From an uncultured Pelagibacteraceae bacterium (GTDB lineage Bacteria > Pseudomonadota > Alphaproteobacteria > Pelagibacterales > Pelagibacteraceae): 57,507 bases of DNA. The DNA lies in contig CABYPZ010000006.1 in the NCBI GenBank assembly GCA_902521005.1, positions 1 through 57,507 on the forward strand. The letters run 5' to 3'. Below the pieces are notes generated by a model that worked only from the letters and a program-made list of their open reading frames with translations, ran no database searches and was not told the origin of the DNA. Positions 19,767 through 25,764 of the stretch are shown here, piece by piece. A program made the translations under genes and the position numbers. How positions within the stretch are numbered: position 1 is the first letter of the stretch; each line of letters starts with the position of its first letter.

Positions 19767-21842
19767 ATGAAAATACCACAACTTAGAAAAAAACTAGATA
19801 TAAAATCTTGTCACAATACAAGTTGGGAAGACAACTATAGCTGGATACACCAAAATAATATACTAGACGTTTTAAAAGATAGCTCTAAGCTATTACCTGA
19901 AGTTAGGAAGTATTTAGAGGAAGAAAATGCATATACAGAACATCATTTAGAAAATACCAAACAAATACAAAAAGAATTATTTAATGAAATAAAAGGTCGA
20001 ATTAAATTAGATGATGAAAGTTTGCCATATAAAGATATAAATTATGAATATTGGACTAAAACCACGACAGAGGGTAATTACTCAATAAAATTAAGAAAAA
20101 AAATTGGTTCAAATGACATTGAAGAAATCTGGAATGGAGATAAAGAAAAAGATAAATTAAATACTGAATATTTTGGTGTAGGAGATTTAGAGGTAAGTTT
20201 TAATGACAAACTATTAGGTTATTCATTAGATCTGAAAGGATCAGAATACTACACTATTTATATTAGAGACATTTCAAATGATAAACTTGTTACTGAAAAA
20301 ATTGATGAGACCAGTGGCTCAATTACATTCAGCTTAGACGATAAATTTATATTTTATTCTAAGCTAGACAAATTTCATAGACCTAGAAAAATCTTTAGAC
20401 ATAAAATAGGTACCTCAATTAGAGAAGATGAATTAATTTTCGAAGAAAAAAGTGAAGCATTTACTGTAGGTATAGGTTTGAGCGCAGATGAAAAATATTA
20501 TTTTATATCAACTTCCGACCACAATACTTCAGAACAATATTATTTTAATATAGATGAAGAACAACCAAAACCAAAATTGATTAAAAAAAGAGAAAAAGGA
20601 GTGCTTTATTCTGTAAACTCTTGGGAGGGATCATTTTATAATCATACAAATAAAGATGCTGAGGATTTTAAAATTGAAAGATGTAAAGATTTAACAGATC
20701 AAAAGTGGGAGATTTTTATTCCTCCTAAAAAAGAAGTCCTTATAGGAGGTTTGGTATTTTTAGATAATTGGATTTTAAGGTCAGAAATTTCTAACGCCTT
20801 AGGCAAGATATATGTCAAAAATAAAGAAAATGAAATTGAGCAAGAATTAATTTTCTCTGATGAAAAAGTAATTATTCCAAGTGTTTCTTTAATGCAAAAA
20901 AACAAAAATACAGACTTAATTCATTTATCTTATTCTTCTCCAAAGACACCTGGAAGGACATATTTATATAATCTTAAATCAAAAGAAAAAAAGCTTATTA
21001 AAGAACAAGAAATTCCATCAGGACATAAACCAGATGATTATATAGTAGAAAGATTTGAATGTCCTTCTCATGATGGAAAATTAATTCCAGTTACAATTAC
21101 AAGACACAAAAATACAAAAATTGATGGTACATCTAATTTATTATTATACGGTTATGGATCATATGGAAGTTCAATGTGGCCAGGATTTTCTTCTACAAGA
21201 TTTAGCTTAATTAATCGAAATATAATTTGGGCTACAGCGCATATAAGGGGTGGAATGGAAAAAGGAATGAAGTGGTGGAAGGAAGGAAAACTTCTTAACA
21301 AAAAAAATACTTTTGAGGATTATATTTCAGTTGCTAAATTTTTAATAAAAAAAAAATATACTGCAAAAAGAAAAATAATTGGTATGGGTGGTTCAGCCGG
21401 GGGTTTGTTAATGGGTGCGGTAGTAAATCAAGAACCAGATTTATTTTTAGGAATTAATATGGCAGTTCCATTTGTTGATTCATTGACTACAAATTTAGAT
21501 CATTCTTTACCTTTGACTGTAGGAGAATTTGATGAATTTGGAAACGCAAAAGATAATAAGGAGCATTTTGACTATATTTATTCTTATGCACCTTACAACA
21601 ATATTAAAAAGATGGATTATCCTCATATTTTAATCACTACAAGTTTAAGTGATAATAGAGTTTTATTTGATGAGCCTGCAAAATTTACTGCAAAACTTCG
21701 TGACTTTAAAACAGATAGCAATCTTTTACTTTTAAAAACGGAAATGAACGCTGGACATGGTGGCAAATCAGGAAGGGATGGTGCTATAGAAGAAGTTGCA
21801 TTTGATTATGCATTTATCTTAAAAATCTCAAAAAAAATTTAA
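19767..21842 (+). CDS. ptrB: Oligopeptidase B (S9 family serine peptidase)
   Basis: A 691-residue protein of normal oligopeptidase B length. An N-terminal beta-propeller is followed by an alpha/beta-hydrolase domain with the nucleophile Ser543 in GMGGSAGGLLMG and the catalytic His in MNAGHGGKSGRDG. The WATAHIRGGMEKGMKWWKEGK segment is characteristic. It cleaves short peptides after basic residues in the cytoplasm; there is no signal peptide. No operon partner is seen. The 3' end overlaps the convergent exported-protein gene by 4 bases. Confidence 0.93.
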   Translation: MKIPQLRKKLDIKSCHNTSWEDNYSWIHQNNILDVLKDSSKLLPEVRKYLEEENAYTEHHLENTKQIQKELFNEIKGRIKLDDESLPYKDINYEYWTKTTTEGNYSIKLRKKIGSNDIEEIWNGDKEKDKLNTEYFGVGDLEVSFNDKLLGYSLDLKGSEYYTIYIRDISNDKLVTEKIDETSGSITFSLDDKFIFYSKLDKFHRPRKIFRHKIGTSIREDELIFEEKSEAFTVGIGLSADEKYYFISTSDHNTSEQYYFNIDEEQPKPKLIKKREKGVLYSVNSWEGSFYNHTNKDAEDFKIERCKDLTDQKWEIFIPPKKEVLIGGLVFLDNWILRSEISNALGKIYVKNKENEIEQELIFSDEKVIIPSVSLMQKNKNTDLIHLSYSSPKTPGRTYLYNLKSKEKKLIKEQEIPSGHKPDDYIVERFECPSHDGKLIPVTITRHKNTKIDGTSNLLLYGYGSYGSSMWPGFSSTRFSLINRNIIWATAHIRGGMEKGMKWWKEGKLLNKKNTFEDYISVAKFLIKKKYTAKRKIIGMGGSAGGLLMGAVVNQEPDLFLGINMAVPFVDSLTTNLDHSLPLTVGEFDEFGNAKDNKEHFDYIYSYAPYNNIKKMDYPHILITTSLSDNRVLFDEPAKFTAKLRDFKTDSNLLLLKTEMNAGHGGKSGRDGAIEEVAFDYAFILKISKKI

Positions 21843-24178
21843 TCACAATCTCCTTCACATGCTTTATGTTCACCTTGCTCATGAGCATTTCCCTGATTTG
21901 GATCATTTTGACCTGGACCAAAAGTTGGTCCTGTACTTGGATTTAAGCCTAAACCAGAACCAGCGACGGTACCCTCTATTGCTTCACCAGTAGCGTTTGC
22001 TGCTTCAGCTATCGCTTCTTTGAGCTCACCCTCTGTCAAAGATTTTAAATCTATATCTTGATACTTAAATATATGCTCGCTTATTCTTGCTAATTCTCCA
22101 TCTATTAATTTTTGTTTTACTTCCTCAGACATATTATCATTTTCTAGATATTTTTTCTCGAGATCAGCTCTAATCTCATCTAAAGATTTATTTGAATTAT
22201 TGTTATTTAAAGAAGTATTTTTTAAGTTTGGTAATTTTTTAAAAGTTCCTACAACCGCAACTGGTTTTGTTGTAATTATAATATTACCATTCTCATCTTC
22301 CTCAATTGTAATGCCCCATGCTTCTTCATTTTGCTTCCAATATTTTTTATATTTACTTGAGCTATACCATTTTTCAACTGCAGCGTCTGCATCTTCCCAA
22401 CTTCCACCTCTGTACCTTACACTTTCAGATACATATGTACCTTCAGTCCAGGTATCGACATAATTATTCCAGACATTTCTTCTTATTTTTTCCGCGTCTT
22501 CTTCTGAATATTCAAAGTCCTTTATAGCTCTATCATAGAATGCATTTGAAATTTTTTGAGCTTCATCAAAAACATCACCTTCCCACTCACCAGAATCTGT
22601 GTTGTAATTGATATTTTCATAAACTCTCATACTTATTTCTAAATCGGCTCTAGTATCTGAAGGATCAAATTTTAATATTTCGGTTCCTTTTAACGAGTCT
22701 AAGTATGCTCCAAATGTACTTTCGTCAGGTATCCATTCTTTGTCTGAGTCTTCCTCGCCCCACCTTTCAAACCATTCTGTATAATTATTATTTGGATTCA
22801 TTGCCCATTTTTCTACTGCTAAATCTGCTTCGTCATAAGTTTTTCCAGCTGCTAAAGCTTTTTCCATTACGTATGTTCCATCTAGCCAAATATCTAAATA
22901 TGTTGATGCAGCATTGGCTCCAAGTATATCAGCTTCAGCATTTGAAAAGCCTTTATCAAGAGCCATTTTTTTTACAAATTCTGCGACCTCATCTGCTTCA
23001 CTATATGGATCTCCCTCTCCTTCTCCTTGACCAGTCATAAAATCTTGCGTTAAATAGCTAACTGTTCTTGCCATTGCCTCTTTGTTTAATCTGTCATCTG
23101 ATAATTCATAAGTTTCAATTTCACCATCACCAATTTTTGTAAACCAATCTTTTAATGCATCTGGATTTGGAAGATGTTCATCTTCTGGATCATCTATTCT
23201 ATAAAAGTTTAAAGCCCATTGATTAAATTTATTATTAGGATCTAAGAACCATTTGTCTAAAGCAGCATCAGATTCTTCCCAAGACCCTCCTGCAGCTCTT
23301 GTTTGTTCAGCAATTTCGGAACCATGAAACCACATATCGTAATACGCTGAATAAGCATTGCTTGCCAATAAATTTGCTTTATCTTCACTAAAACCAAATT
23401 TGATTGCCTCATCATAAACTGCTTTCTGAATGTCTAATGCTTCGTCAACTGGTTTCCCTACTGAAATTCTATAATCATTCTTTTCCCAGCTATAATCATA
23501 GTTTTGGAGTGTTCTGACTGTTGCAAAATCTTTTAACCTATCTCGGTTTGGATCAAGTGGACTAAACTTTGGCGGTATAATTTCACCAGAATCATCAGAT
23601 TTGAACTCATCTTTTGGAATTGAAGCAATTTCTTCCCCACTTGGGATTGAATTATCAATTTCTAATTCTTTTAAACTTTCGTTAATTGAATTTATATTTA
23701 TTCCTACATCTTCTAAGTTTTTAATACTCTTTAAAATTTTGATATTTTTTTTTTGTTTTTTTGCTTTAGAAGAAGAACTTAATTGCATCATCACATTTAA
23801 AGTTTCTTCACTAATAGAATCATTTTCATTGTTAGAAACTTCTCTGGTTATTTCTTTAGGAATAATTTTAGATATGTCTTTAATGTAAAGATCAATTAAG
23901 TTCAGGCTATCAAGCAAAACATCTTGTTTATCTAAGCTCAAATTTTGTTTCGAGAATTCTACAATTATGTCTAGTTTTTTGAGACTTTTATCAATTTTTT
24001 GAGCGTCCTCAGACTCATTTTCTTTTAAATTTGAAATTTTCTTTTGTAACTTTTCTATTTTTTTTTTATACTTCTTAAACGATTTATCTAAGTCTTGATT
24101 AATTTTATCATCTATATTTGCATAAGTATGTGTAAATGCAAATAATATGAGAAAAAAATAAATTAGTATATTTTTCAT
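21839..24178 (-). CDS. Large exported protein with three internal repeats, unknown function
   Basis: 779 residues. Residues 1-20 are a signal peptide (MKNILIYFFLILFAFTHTYA). Residues 22-110 are a Lys/Glu-rich coiled coil. Three related units of 105-108 residues follow at 214-321, 363-469 and 510-614, sharing FDEA/VDEA, FSEDKA-like, YxDxWxxGxYV, GGSWEEADAAVEKW and a closing W. A polar tail ends with HKACEGDCD, a possible metal or disulfide site. The protein is acidic overall. I do not recognise the family. A second exported protein gene lies 1 base upstream on the same strand. Periplasmic or surface location is inferred from the signal peptide. Confidence 0.8.
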   Translation of the reverse strand: MKNILIYFFLILFAFTHTYANIDDKINQDLDKSFKKYKKKIEKLQKKISNLKENESEDAQKIDKSLKKLDIIVEFSKQNLSLDKQDVLLDSLNLIDLYIKDISKIIPKEITREVSNNENDSISEETLNVMMQLSSSSKAKKQKKNIKILKSIKNLEDVGININSINESLKELEIDNSIPSGEEIASIPKDEFKSDDSGEIIPPKFSPLDPNRDRLKDFATVRTLQNYDYSWEKNDYRISVGKPVDEALDIQKAVYDEAIKFGFSEDKANLLASNAYSAYYDMWFHGSEIAEQTRAAGGSWEESDAALDKWFLDPNNKFNQWALNFYRIDDPEDEHLPNPDALKDWFTKIGDGEIETYELSDDRLNKEAMARTVSYLTQDFMTGQGEGEGDPYSEADEVAEFVKKMALDKGFSNAEADILGANAASTYLDIWLDGTYVMEKALAAGKTYDEADLAVEKWAMNPNNNYTEWFERWGEEDSDKEWIPDESTFGAYLDSLKGTEILKFDPSDTRADLEISMRVYENINYNTDSGEWEGDVFDEAQKISNAFYDRAIKDFEYSEEDAEKIRRNVWNNYVDTWTEGTYVSESVRYRGGSWEDADAAVEKWYSSSKYKKYWKQNEEAWGITIEEDENGNIIITTKPVAVVGTFKKLPNLKNTSLNNNNSNKSLDEIRADLEKKYLENDNMSEEVKQKLIDGELARISEHIFKYQDIDLKSLTEGELKEAIAEAANATGEAIEGTVAGSGLGLNPSTGPTFGPGQNDPNQGNAHEQGEHKACEGDCD
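22337..23539 (-). repeat. Three protein-level repeats inside the exported 779-residue protein
   Basis: The units correspond to bases 23216-23539 (residues 214-321), 22772-23092 (363-469) and 22337-22651 (510-614), with a period of 147-149 residues including linkers. The nucleotide sequences have diverged, so the repeat is seen only in protein. Shared positions are the opening Arg, a helix with Ala-rich NAYSAYYDMW / NAASTYLDIW / NVWNNYVDTW, GGSWEESDAALDKW / GKTYDEADLAVEKW / GGSWEDADAAVEKW, and a final Trp. An ancient tandem duplication is the simplest explanation. Confidence 0.8.
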
Positions 24179-24179
24179 A

Positions 24180-24830
24180 TTAGTTTTCTAAAAATTCGTA
24201 AAGTTTATTTATTTCTTTTTTTTCAATTCTTTTTTTTAAAAAACCTACTGTTGATTTATATTCTGATAGTAGACTTTCTCTTTTTTTTAATTCTTTGTCT
24301 ACTTTTGCAACTTTTAGATCTCCTCTTTGTAAAAAATCTCCTATGATCCAATAATATTTAATTACATATTCAGGGCTTTCTGCAATACTCATGCCTAATG
24401 CTTCCCTCATAATTTTTCTAGTTTCATTGGCCTTAATTAAAGATGAAATGTCTTTTCCTTTAACAATTTTTTTTGGCCATTTTTCTCTGAATTTCTTAAG
24501 ATCTTTTTGTGCATTTTTTAGTTTTGACAAATAATATATTTCATATAGTGCCATTGCATAAATTTGGCTTCCAGGATTTCTATCATTATATTTTTGAGTT
24601 CTTTTAAACCTTAAAGACATTTCTTTGGTTGCTTTATTTTTTAAGCATATAAAATTATCGATTTTACAATTTTTAAATGTTGTTTCCATTAAACCATTTG
24701 GATATGATTTTGGCATATCTAAATTACCTATCTCTTTTAATTTTATTTCAACAAGATCTATAGTTTTTTGATCAGAATATACAGGTAGAGAAAAAAGTAA
24801 GAAAATAAAAATTATAAAAATTTTTTTCAT
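24180..24830 (-). CDS. Exported helical protein of unknown function
   Basis: 216 residues with a signal peptide (MKKIFIIFIFLLFSLPVYS). The mature part is mostly helical and basic, with two Cys in FKNCKIDNFICLKN that could form a disulfide. There are no recognised domains. It is separated by one base from the downstream 779-residue repeat protein, so both are almost certainly expressed together and may interact in the periplasm. It is divergent from the hsp20 gene, with a 140-base gap that holds the hsp20 control region. Confidence 0.7.
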   Translation of the reverse strand: MKKIFIIFIFLLFSLPVYSDQKTIDLVEIKLKEIGNLDMPKSYPNGLMETTFKNCKIDNFICLKNKATKEMSLRFKRTQKYNDRNPGSQIYAMALYEIYYLSKLKNAQKDLKKFREKWPKKIVKGKDISSLIKANETRKIMREALGMSIAESPEYVIKYYWIIGDFLQRGDLKVAKVDKELKKRESLLSEYKSTVGFLKKRIEKKEINKLYEFLEN

Positions 24831-24880
24831 ATTTATGAATTTAAGAAAAAATAAATAATTTTCAAGTTTCTTTATTTTTC

Positions 24881-24910
24881 CCTTGAAAACTAAGGATACG
24901 TACCTAAATA
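24881..24910 (+). promoter_or_regulatory. Candidate heat-shock (sigma-32 type) promoter of hsp20
   Basis: CCTTGAAA at 24881-24888 is followed after 14 bases by CCTAAATA at 24903-24910. Both boxes and the spacing resemble RpoH promoters (CTTGAAA, 11-15 bases, CCCATnT-like). Transcription would begin near 24917, giving a leader of roughly 54 bases that contains the ROSE-like hairpins. Confidence 0.55.
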
Positions 24911-24915
24911 AGATT

Positions 24916-24970
24916 TGTAGGTCGCCTGATGGGGCTTACATAAATTAACTTGCTTTAAAAGGAGGAAAAC
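24916..24970 (+). promoter_or_regulatory. ROSE-like RNA thermometer in the hsp20 leader
   Basis: The leader folds into two hairpins. The first pairs TGTAGGTCGCC (24916-24926) with GGGGCTTACA (24931-24940), with one unpaired G and a TGAT loop. The second pairs CTTGCT (24949-24954) with AGGAG (24960-24964), hiding the Shine-Dalgarno. Its strand contains TTGCT, the U(U/C)GCU signature of ROSE elements, and pairing with AGGA leaves one bulged G (24952) exactly as in ROSE. ROSE thermometers block translation of small heat-shock genes at low temperature, mainly in alpha- and gammaproteobacteria. This leader is shorter than most described ones. Confidence 0.7.
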
Positions 24971-25417
24971 ATGACAAGTAAGGATATATCTATATTCAAC
25001 TCATTAAGACCTTATTCAATTGGTTTCGACGATATGTTCGATCAATTTGAAAGTATGTTAGGTAATGGAGGTTTGACAATGCAGTCAAACTATCCACCAT
25101 ATAACATAAGAAAAACAGGTAAAGACAACTATGCAATAGAAGTTGCTCTTGCTGGTTTCAATAAAAATGATGTTGAAGTTGAGTTTGAGGATAATTTATT
25201 AACAGTAAGAACTAAACAAGTTGATAAATCTGATACAAAAAACGAAAATGGTGAAGTAATTCACAGAGGTATTTCGCAAAGACAATTTGCTAGATCATTT
25301 ACAATTGCTGATGATGTAAAAGTAAATCTTGCAGAATTAAAAGATGGACTTTTAACTATAGATTGTGAAAGAATTTTACCAGATCATAAGAAAAAAAGAC
25401 TTATTGATATTAGGTAA
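24971..25417 (+). CDS. Small heat-shock protein Hsp20 (IbpA-like)
   Basis: A 148-residue protein. The alpha-crystallin domain covers about residues 40-135, including YNIRKTGKDNYAIEVALAGF, VEVEFEDNLLTVRTKQ and ISQRQFARSFTIADDVKV; the last of these is typical of the IbpA group. The usual C-terminal I-x-I anchor may be weak (RLIDIR at the end). These proteins hold unfolding proteins for later refolding by DnaK/ClpB. A near-perfect Shine-Dalgarno, AGGAGG at 24960-24965, precedes the ATG and is predicted to be masked by a ROSE-like hairpin. The gene appears monocistronic. Confidence 0.95.
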   Translation: MTSKDISIFNSLRPYSIGFDDMFDQFESMLGNGGLTMQSNYPPYNIRKTGKDNYAIEVALAGFNKNDVEVEFEDNLLTVRTKQVDKSDTKNENGEVIHRGISQRQFARSFTIADDVKVNLAELKDGLLTIDCERILPDHKKKRLIDIR

Positions 25418-25429
25418 ACTTGAACCTTG

Positions 25430-25453
25430 CTTGTGGGGATAATTCCCCACAAG
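25430..25453. terminator. Perfect hairpin between convergent hsp20 and lipoprotein genes
   Basis: CTTGTGGGG (25430-25438) pairs with CCCCACAAG (25445-25453), a 9-bp GC-rich stem with a 6-base loop, 13 bases after the hsp20 stop. No T run follows on either strand, so it is not a classical intrinsic terminator. It could still stop transcription, block 3' decay of both mRNAs, or act with Rho. It sits between two convergent genes. Confidence 0.5.
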
Positions 25454-25461
25454 TGATAAAT

Positions 25462-25764
25462 TTAAATACATCCGCTTGAAGCAAATCCTACAATTGTTCC
25501 ATTTGTATTAACTTCAAACTTTCTCTCACAAGGTATTCCATATTTTTTTGTTTTATATACCAAAACTTCATTACCAAGTTCATTTATAAAATCTTCACTA
25601 GCCGCACCAAGCTCTAATTTTAATTCATTTACTTGTTGACCAACAAATAATCCAAACCTTTCATTTTCTTTTGCTGCAACTTCATCAGATTTTTTTTTGA
25701 TTGTTTGACATCCGCTCATTAAAATAAAAGACGTAAATAAAACAATTATGATTCTAATTTTCAT
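25462..25764 (-). CDS. Small lipoprotein of unknown function
   Basis: 100 residues. The N terminus MKIRIIIVLFTSFILMSGC is a lipoprotein signal with lipobox L-M-S-G-C, and Cys19 would be acylated. The mature domain, with GQQVNELKLELGAASEDFI and VYKTKKYGIPCERKFEVN, has the small two-helix, beta-strand pattern seen in SmpA/BamE-like lipoproteins, with a Cys pair that could form a disulfide. That likeness is weak and only structural. It is convergent with hsp20 and divergent from the NCS2 permease, so it stands alone. Confidence 0.75.
   Translation of the reverse strand: MKIRIIIVLFTSFILMSGCQTIKKKSDEVAAKENERFGLFVGQQVNELKLELGAASEDFINELGNEVLVYKTKKYGIPCERKFEVNTNGTIVGFASSGCI

Follow-up and report, generated by a model that had tools for sequence, protein, structure and literature searches.

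The leader of a small heat-shock gene in a SAR11 genome, at positions 24917-24970 of the DNA analysed here, is very probably a short ROSE-type RNA thermometer built from two hairpins, judging by its sequence and predicted structure. The DNA, referred to below as the window, is a stretch of 57,507 nucleotides from an uncultured Pelagibacteraceae bacterium. The leader fits the published definition of the ROSE motif yet passes no Rfam ROSE family as these are now built. A ROSE-like thermometer had been proposed at this place in a first-pass annotation of the window, and that reading is supported in sequence and structure by a conserved anti-Shine-Dalgarno (anti-SD) sequence with a bulged G, by covariation, by a bulge in hairpin I that is shared with ROSE elements, by the promoter and by the association with heat-shock genes. 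SAR11 bacteria are known for sparse regulation. They are the dominant aerobic heterotrophs of marine surface waters (PMC2704228), and if the thermometer is real, they gain a translational heat sensor of only ~54 nt. The features of the region are as follows.

24882..24888, + strand: -35-like element CTTGAAA, from a pattern match at 24882-24909; its spacing is conserved in SAR11 leaders
24903..24909, + strand: -10-like element CCTAAAT, from the pattern match; its position is conserved in SAR11 leaders
24917..24939, + strand: hairpin I, 9 bp, with bulged G24924 and loop UGAU, from folding and covariation
24949..24955, + strand: anti-Shine-Dalgarno CUUGCUU with bulged G24952, the 5' arm of hairpin II, from the letters and the conserved motif
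24959..24964, + strand: AAGGAG, the 3' arm of hairpin II, from pair counts and the leader-only fold
24960-24965, + strand: Shine-Dalgarno AGGAGG
24971..25417, + strand: hsp20 coding sequence (PF00011), the gene that the leader would control
24976..24982, + strand: AAGUAAG, from the third base of codon 2 through codon 4, the alternative 7-bp partner of the anti-SD, from folding

In the proposed mechanism, a sigma-32-type promoter would start the transcript at or next to hairpin I, which would form a stable 5' hairpin. The imperfect helix of hairpin II, with its U-G pair and bulged G, would hold the Shine-Dalgarno and keep translation repressed at normal sea temperature. Following the published ROSE mechanism, warming would loosen hairpin II and hsp20 would be induced both transcriptionally and translationally. 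Pairing of the anti-SD with codons 2-4 may provide a second repressed form.

The hsp20 gene of the window encodes 148 aa and matches PF00011 in Pfam at E 4.3e-17. The closest named relatives of its product are Pelagibacteraceae genome records, with a top identity of 98%, and on sequence grounds the window is SAR11 (Pelagibacteraceae) DNA. The genome that it belongs to is recorded as 1.0 Mb in 33 contigs and is 86% complete. A simple pattern finds a strong Shine-Dalgarno before 7 of 56 open reading frames in the window (ATG-started, at least 100 aa, unfiltered for real genes), and the AGGAGG before hsp20 may therefore be uncommon in this DNA.

Related leaders were taken from 140 loci (L001-L140), of which 60 came from whole genomes and the remainder were the best 80 of 559 relatives. 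The 60 whole-genome loci are best or chosen matches and include most of 31 chosen genomes. An Hsp20 was found in 289 of the 397 genomes of the family, and the leader sample represents best or chosen matches, not all of them. As some genomes occur in both sets, counts are given for distinct leaders, with 113 being distinct from hairpin I to the ATG. All but one of the 140 loci could be parsed; no start was found in L139, which matches the leader model trained on SAR11 alone at 54.5 bits.

The two hairpins and base pairs described in the first-pass annotation are correct in their letters and pairing, and hairpin II consists of the pairs given there plus C24949-G24964 and U24955-A24959. Its helix runs C-G, U-A, U-G, bulged G24952, C-G, U-A, U-A. 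The motif CTYGCT-N2..14-AGGAG has a single occurrence on the two strands of the window and stands only before hsp20 among the same 56 unfiltered reading frames. When positions 24917-24959 were shuffled with the Shine-Dalgarno held fixed, 81 of 20,000 shuffles reproduced the motif. CT[TC]GCT followed by AGGAG is present in 139/139 parsed SAR11 leaders, the window included, in a sample where the choice of start codon favoured an ATG preceded by AGGA or GGAG. A fourU thermometer was also considered and rejected, the CUUGCUU anti-SD having no run of four U.

The structural elements of the published ROSE definition have counterparts in this leader. In the 3'-proximal hairpin the Shine-Dalgarno is imperfectly paired with a U(U/C)GCU sequence, leaving a bulged G, although pairing with codons 2-4 competes. 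The 5' UTR of a small heat-shock gene carries two stem-loops, where two to four are described, and the gene is assigned by its PF00011 match. The structure is backed by covariation, strong in hairpin I and modest in hairpin II. Outside that definition, the boxes of a putative sigma-32-type promoter lie at fixed spacing before the hsp20 leaders.

The covariation was measured in two alignments. In 52 of the 113 SAR11 leaders 97.3% of cells are paired, with a covariation of 0.327 against at most 0.124 in slid controls; the Shine-Dalgarno is off by one base in a few rows of this alignment, that of the window included. This was mended in an alignment of 51 leaders that includes other alphaproteobacteria, where 97.5% are paired and covariation reaches 0.454 against 0.199 in shuffles and at most 0.117 in slid controls, figures that are upper estimates since a model-fitted alignment leans towards the structure. 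One of its rows, L197, has no aligned hairpin II, the match stopping before the true hsp20 start. Hairpin I is paired in 98.9% of cells in the first alignment and 98.7% in the second, and 8/9 and 7/9 of its pairs, respectively, are changed on both sides. For hairpin II, 94.9% of cells are paired in the 52 SAR11 leaders, and the changes within SAR11 are few: the U-G becomes C-G or U-A, and one U-A becomes A-U. This modest covariation is attributed to functional constraint on hairpin II. The check for covariation across homologous leaders suggested by the first-pass annotation was thus passed, strongly by hairpin I and modestly by hairpin II.

Hairpin I combines a covarying stem with a conserved bulge and loops that are mostly U-N-A-U. 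A narrow first pattern for it missed 14/139 leaders, in which variant hairpins are visible by eye. In the window it is separated from hairpin II by a 9 nt linker. One SAR11 leader (L124) has a hairpin I in which UUGCU and AGGA pair around a bulged G, just as in the thermosensing hairpin, and hairpins I and II may therefore be related by duplication.

The promoter keeps a fixed geometry in SAR11. Exactly 16 nt separate TTGA from the -10-like heptamer, taken as the best-scoring choice, in 108 of 120 distinct leaders, and the end of the heptamer is 7 nt from hairpin I in 96 of the 120; a match is absent or poor in five (5/120). This supports the sigma-32-like promoter that had been postulated before hsp20, a promoter type with CTTGAA and CCNATNT-like boxes. 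Within the window the pattern alone is not significant, being present in 36/100 shuffles. As the position of the promoter is fixed relative to hairpin I, the 5' end of the mRNA would lie at hairpin I and the leader would be ~54 nt long, with transcription predicted to start at ~24915-24917, at or next to the hairpin. The leader had been described as shorter than most ROSE leaders. It is indeed short and AT-rich, but its length falls within the class, as the ROSE elements of Pseudomonas ibpA measure 61-62 nt (PMC3669281).

Folding of the leaders at different temperatures, which had been put forward as a check, shows a masked Shine-Dalgarno but an opening that is merely gradual. In the 113 leaders alone the mean unpaired fraction of the Shine-Dalgarno rises from 0.19 at 5 C through 0.22 (15 C) and 0.28 (35 C) to 0.46 at 55 C, compared to 0.43 to 0.57 when the upstream part is shuffled, and native leaders thus mask it better than shuffled ones. 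With 30 nt of coding sequence at 15 C the unpaired fraction is 0.37 on average and 0.55 in the window, a weaker masking that arises because CUUGCUU pairs with the AAGUAAG of codons 2-4. The leader of the window with 15 coding nucleotides folds with a z-score of -2.81 (3/200 shuffles are as good), and in this fold CUUGCUU pairs with codons 2-4, not the Shine-Dalgarno. For the window with coding sequence, the lowest-energy fold at 25 C and above pairs the anti-SD with the coding start, while at lower temperatures the two pairings are mixed.

When the bulged G is deleted in silico, or U24951 changed to C, the Shine-Dalgarno closes: its unpaired fraction at 25 C is 0.07, compared with 0.27 in the native leader. 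This agrees with the majority of the published Pseudomonas mutants, though not with every one (PMC3669281). In P. aeruginosa deletion of the bulged G leads to repression, while in P. putida it causes a small drop in basal expression and a stronger induction (PMC3669281). A U-to-C change at the wobble position of Pseudomonas ibpA removes most of the response, and combined with deletion of the bulged G it leaves the element locked (PMC3669281). CUCGCU occurs naturally in some SAR11 leaders, though according to folding such a change locks the hairpin of the window.

Rfam as it stands does not recognise the leader. No family matches anywhere in the window at gathering score, and no ROSE model matches the region 24600-25200 at E 10. 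The scan with the ROSE models RF00435 and RF01832 that the first-pass annotation had recommended therefore did not bear it out, with no match at gathering score in the window and none listed for 24600-25200 even at E 10. RF00435 passes its gathering score in 0/21 relatives, where its single match is sub-threshold (19.3 bits, E 0.68, cut-off 45) and falls on an hsp20 leader (L141). RF02523 passes in 0/190 genomes of the class, with a sub-threshold match in 61/190. Neither of these two genome scans has a positive control of its own, as the cut-off was not passed in 14 named control genomes. When Rfam was run on 11 related loci, the only ROSE match was to ROSE_3 in L180, a related alphaproteobacterial hsp20 leader that aligns to the full length of the model at 28.6 bits (cut-off 43). 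Among 15 mostly SAR11 loci the only ROSE matches are in the SAR11 leader L122, below threshold, at 22.8 of 65 bits for ROSE_2 and 21.3 of 43 bits for ROSE_3 over the full model. The ROSE_3 alignments to L180 and L122 both include the bulge of hairpin I. As separate positive controls, RF01832 gives E. coli ibpA 100.4 bits, and RF00435 places four of five hsp20 leaders from alphaproteobacterial plasmids at or above its cut-off of 45 (L250-L253, 45.0-85.5 bits), the Paracoccus leader L249 being below it at 38.6.

Comparison with known ROSE elements shows where the SAR11 leader resembles and departs from them. The classical rhizobial element (RF00435) has a hairpin I with a bulged G just before CC, as in the window, and the R. 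leguminosarum leader L250 reads GGTCGCCGGATGGGGCC where the window reads GGTCGCCTGATGGGGCT. Its last hairpin pairs UUGCU or UCGCU with AGGA, again like the window. However, RF00435 spans 94 positions and three hairpins, whereas the SAR11 leader has the 9 nt linker in place of the middle hairpin. The simplest reading of these likenesses is that the SAR11 leader would be a ROSE element in which hairpin I and the thermosensing hairpin are kept and the middle one is absent. The E. coli ibpA element (RF01832) likewise ends in a hairpin of UCGCU and AGGAG, and its predicted fold contains an upstream hairpin, CGCC-UGAU-GGG with a bulged G, of the type of hairpin I; unlike the window, it has a longer leader and an extra hairpin. 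The bulged G of hairpin I is thus common to SAR11, rhizobial ROSE and E. coli ibpA, in the last case according to the predicted fold.

The nearest studied case is the short ROSE of Pseudomonas ibpA, with two hairpins, sigma-32 transcription and a U(U/C)GCU anti-SD (PMC3669281). In that leader hairpin II melts while hairpin I stays (PMC3669281). Rfam RF02523 (ROSE_3), which has a similar two-hairpin consensus, appears to be linked to the Pseudomonas ibpA ROSE. In 2013 the role of the 5' hairpins of ROSE elements was described as not fully understood (PMC3669281), and a hairpin I with a bulged G common to SAR11 and ROSE makes that role directly testable.

A similar fold occurs before other heat-shock genes in the class. 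A first covariance model, whose training set consisted entirely of SAR11 hsp20 leaders, was applied to 289 genomes of the class and found 21 places outside Pelagibacteraceae at E<=0.1: 7 before hsp20, 3 before rpoH, 2 before dnaK and 9 before other genes, the following gene being taken as the longest open reading frame that starts near the end of the match. The 9 best of these places all precede heat-shock genes. One of the 7 hsp20 places (L197) is matched by hairpin I alone, with hsp20 starting 20 nt past the match. A broader model, which adds those 12 heat-shock places, was run on 385 genomes and found 40 places, of which 5 lie within Pelagibacteraceae. The 35 outside the family comprise 14 HSP20, 8 sigma-70-type (RpoH-type), 6 HSP70, 1 ClpB and 6 others, so that 29/35 are heat-shock genes, as are all of the top 20. 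Counting only places outside the training set, 17/23 are heat-shock genes (7 hsp20, 5 rpoH, 4 dnaK and 1 clpB). Of ten following proteins compared with NCBIfam, 5 sigma factors pass the cut-off of the RpoH subfamily and 2 DnaK proteins pass theirs, while a ClpB fragment and two Hsp20s, with IbpA as their best models, fall short of the cut-off. For the remaining three sigma factors the RpoH assignment comes from sequence only. Canonical ROSE leaders score weakly with the broader model, at 9.5-18.9 bits, the E. coli ibpA leader reaching 11.0.

These leaders share the fold as well as the position. The 15 rpoH, dnaK and clpB leaders are 91.4% paired with a covariation of 0.714, compared to 0.233 in shuffles and at most 0.185 in slid controls, and the 13 hsp20 leaders from outside SAR11 are 94.7% paired with a covariation of 0.604; as both alignments are model-fitted, these are likewise upper estimates. 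A further measure, the number of additional pair types in the 15 leaders, was reached by 96/500 shuffles. A scan of the phylum gave matches in 3/398 genomes at E<=0.01, namely that of the window, another Pelagibacteraceae genome and one outside the class, where the matched hsp20 leader (L254) has both hairpins.

Distribution nearer to the window is narrower. The window's own rpoH and dnaK leaders contain no such element on reading, and its genome, at 86% completeness, gives no further copy, the next best match having E 3.0. With filters off, the broader model scores 10.1 bits at a site within the SAR11 rpoH gene and 15.9 bits (E 0.07) at one immediately past dnaK; both were taken as chance. 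No copy was detectable in the sister family of the order (f2), where the best E among the matches listed under strict filters is 0.1. Some Pelagibacteraceae genomes have no leader match or a weak one, and G001, G012, G015, G032, G040, G230 and G294 among them also have no Hsp20 match.

Alternative accounts of the leader differ mainly in the part that they assign to each hairpin. The leader may serve mainly to bind Hsp20, through hairpin I, hairpin II or both, with autorepression lasting until unfolded proteins titrate Hsp20 away and RNA melting playing a minor part. This is possible but rather doubtful as the main function, although it is compatible with a thermometer and the confidence placed in the two need not sum to one. 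In E. coli, translation of ibpA is repressed by binding of IbpA to the 5' UTR, for which R93 is needed (PMC10474464), and the same paper describes good conservation of R93 and Y34 among alphaproteobacterial IbpAs (PMC10474464). When matched by pattern instead of alignment, the equivalent of R93 is R in 119/119 distinct SAR11 Hsp20s and that of Y34 is Y in 113/119, the other 6 being unmatched. Together with the conserved bulge and the mostly U-N-A-U loops on the covarying stem of hairpin I, these residues suggest that hairpin I may be a protein site. However, the residues may be kept for chaperone function, and the published thermosensing part of ROSE is the bulged-G anti-SD. A wider version, which we hold only tentatively, is that the two-hairpin element would be a heat-shock RNA operator shared by hsp20, rpoH, dnaK and clpB in different lineages of alphaproteobacteria, mostly with small genomes, in which hairpin II senses temperature and hairpin I is the site of Hsp20 feedback on its own and other heat-shock mRNAs. 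If true, it would provide a function for the 5' hairpins of ROSE elements.

It is less probable that the functional lock is the hairpin formed by CUUGCUU and AAGUAAG, with the Shine-Dalgarno and AUG in its loop and pairing of the Shine-Dalgarno secondary. At 37 C the minimum-energy fold of the window's leader contains this hairpin. Codons AGT and AAG are fixed in 95/95 genes that begin MTSKD, while further on AGT accounts for 67/823 Ser and AAG for 310/1229 Lys. Synonymous recoding of 36 leaders weakened the pairing in several clades, where the native codons 2-4 are better than their recodings and only 2-3% of recodings are as good in L001, L130 and L138. This support is mixed across clades, however, with an opposite or null effect elsewhere (z +1.7 to +1.9 in L132 and L134, ~0 in L129), and leaders whose codons 2-4 are different, for example ATGAAAGAA and ATGAGTAAT, retain the pairing with the Shine-Dalgarno. 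Least probable of all is a leader that does not sense temperature, in which hairpin I shields the mRNA at its 5' end, hairpin II tunes translation and heat control is transcriptional only. Folding predicts no sharp transition in the physiological range, and the conserved sigma-32-type promoter could already give heat control. On the other hand, the bulged G and imperfect pairing are conserved, and the same fold recurs before hsp20, rpoH, dnaK and clpB.

The thermometer reading also extends what has been reported for ROSE elements. A 2014 review ties ROSE always to small heat-shock genes (PMC4166951), and the fold before rpoH, dnaK and clpB would reach beyond that; ABC transporter genes were added as ROSE-associated in 2024 (PMC11342760). 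A 2019 study of the SAR11 strain HIMB5 listed one possible RNA thermometer among 47 intergenic regions, with its gene unnamed in the main text (PMC6429828). This candidate comes from the same clade as the window and may or may not be the hsp20 leader, and priority for the SAR11 leader can therefore not be claimed. In the titles and abstracts of the open-licence literature no thermometer before a SAR11 hsp20 and no ROSE before rpoH or dnaK was found. Judged against that literature, what appears to be new is that every SAR11 leader examined carries the element, that the element is minimal, and that the fold also precedes rpoH, dnaK and clpB.

The surroundings of hsp20 show some further features. 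Upstream, 21839-24178 on the - strand encodes a 779-aa protein with a signal-like start and, by eye, apparently three repeats of ~110 aa; it has no Pfam match at E 0.001. Downstream and convergent to hsp20, 25462-25764 on the - strand encodes a 100-aa lipoprotein-like protein (MSGCQ) with no Pfam match, and the same neighbour seems by eye to be present in several relatives. Between hsp20 and this convergent gene, at 25430-25453, lies a perfect 10 bp inverted repeat (CTTGTGGGGA/TCCCCACAAG), at which a terminator scan gave no site. A perfect stem of at least 8 bp is present in 88/104 distinct SAR11 hsp20 3' flanks, and its sequence varies between clades.
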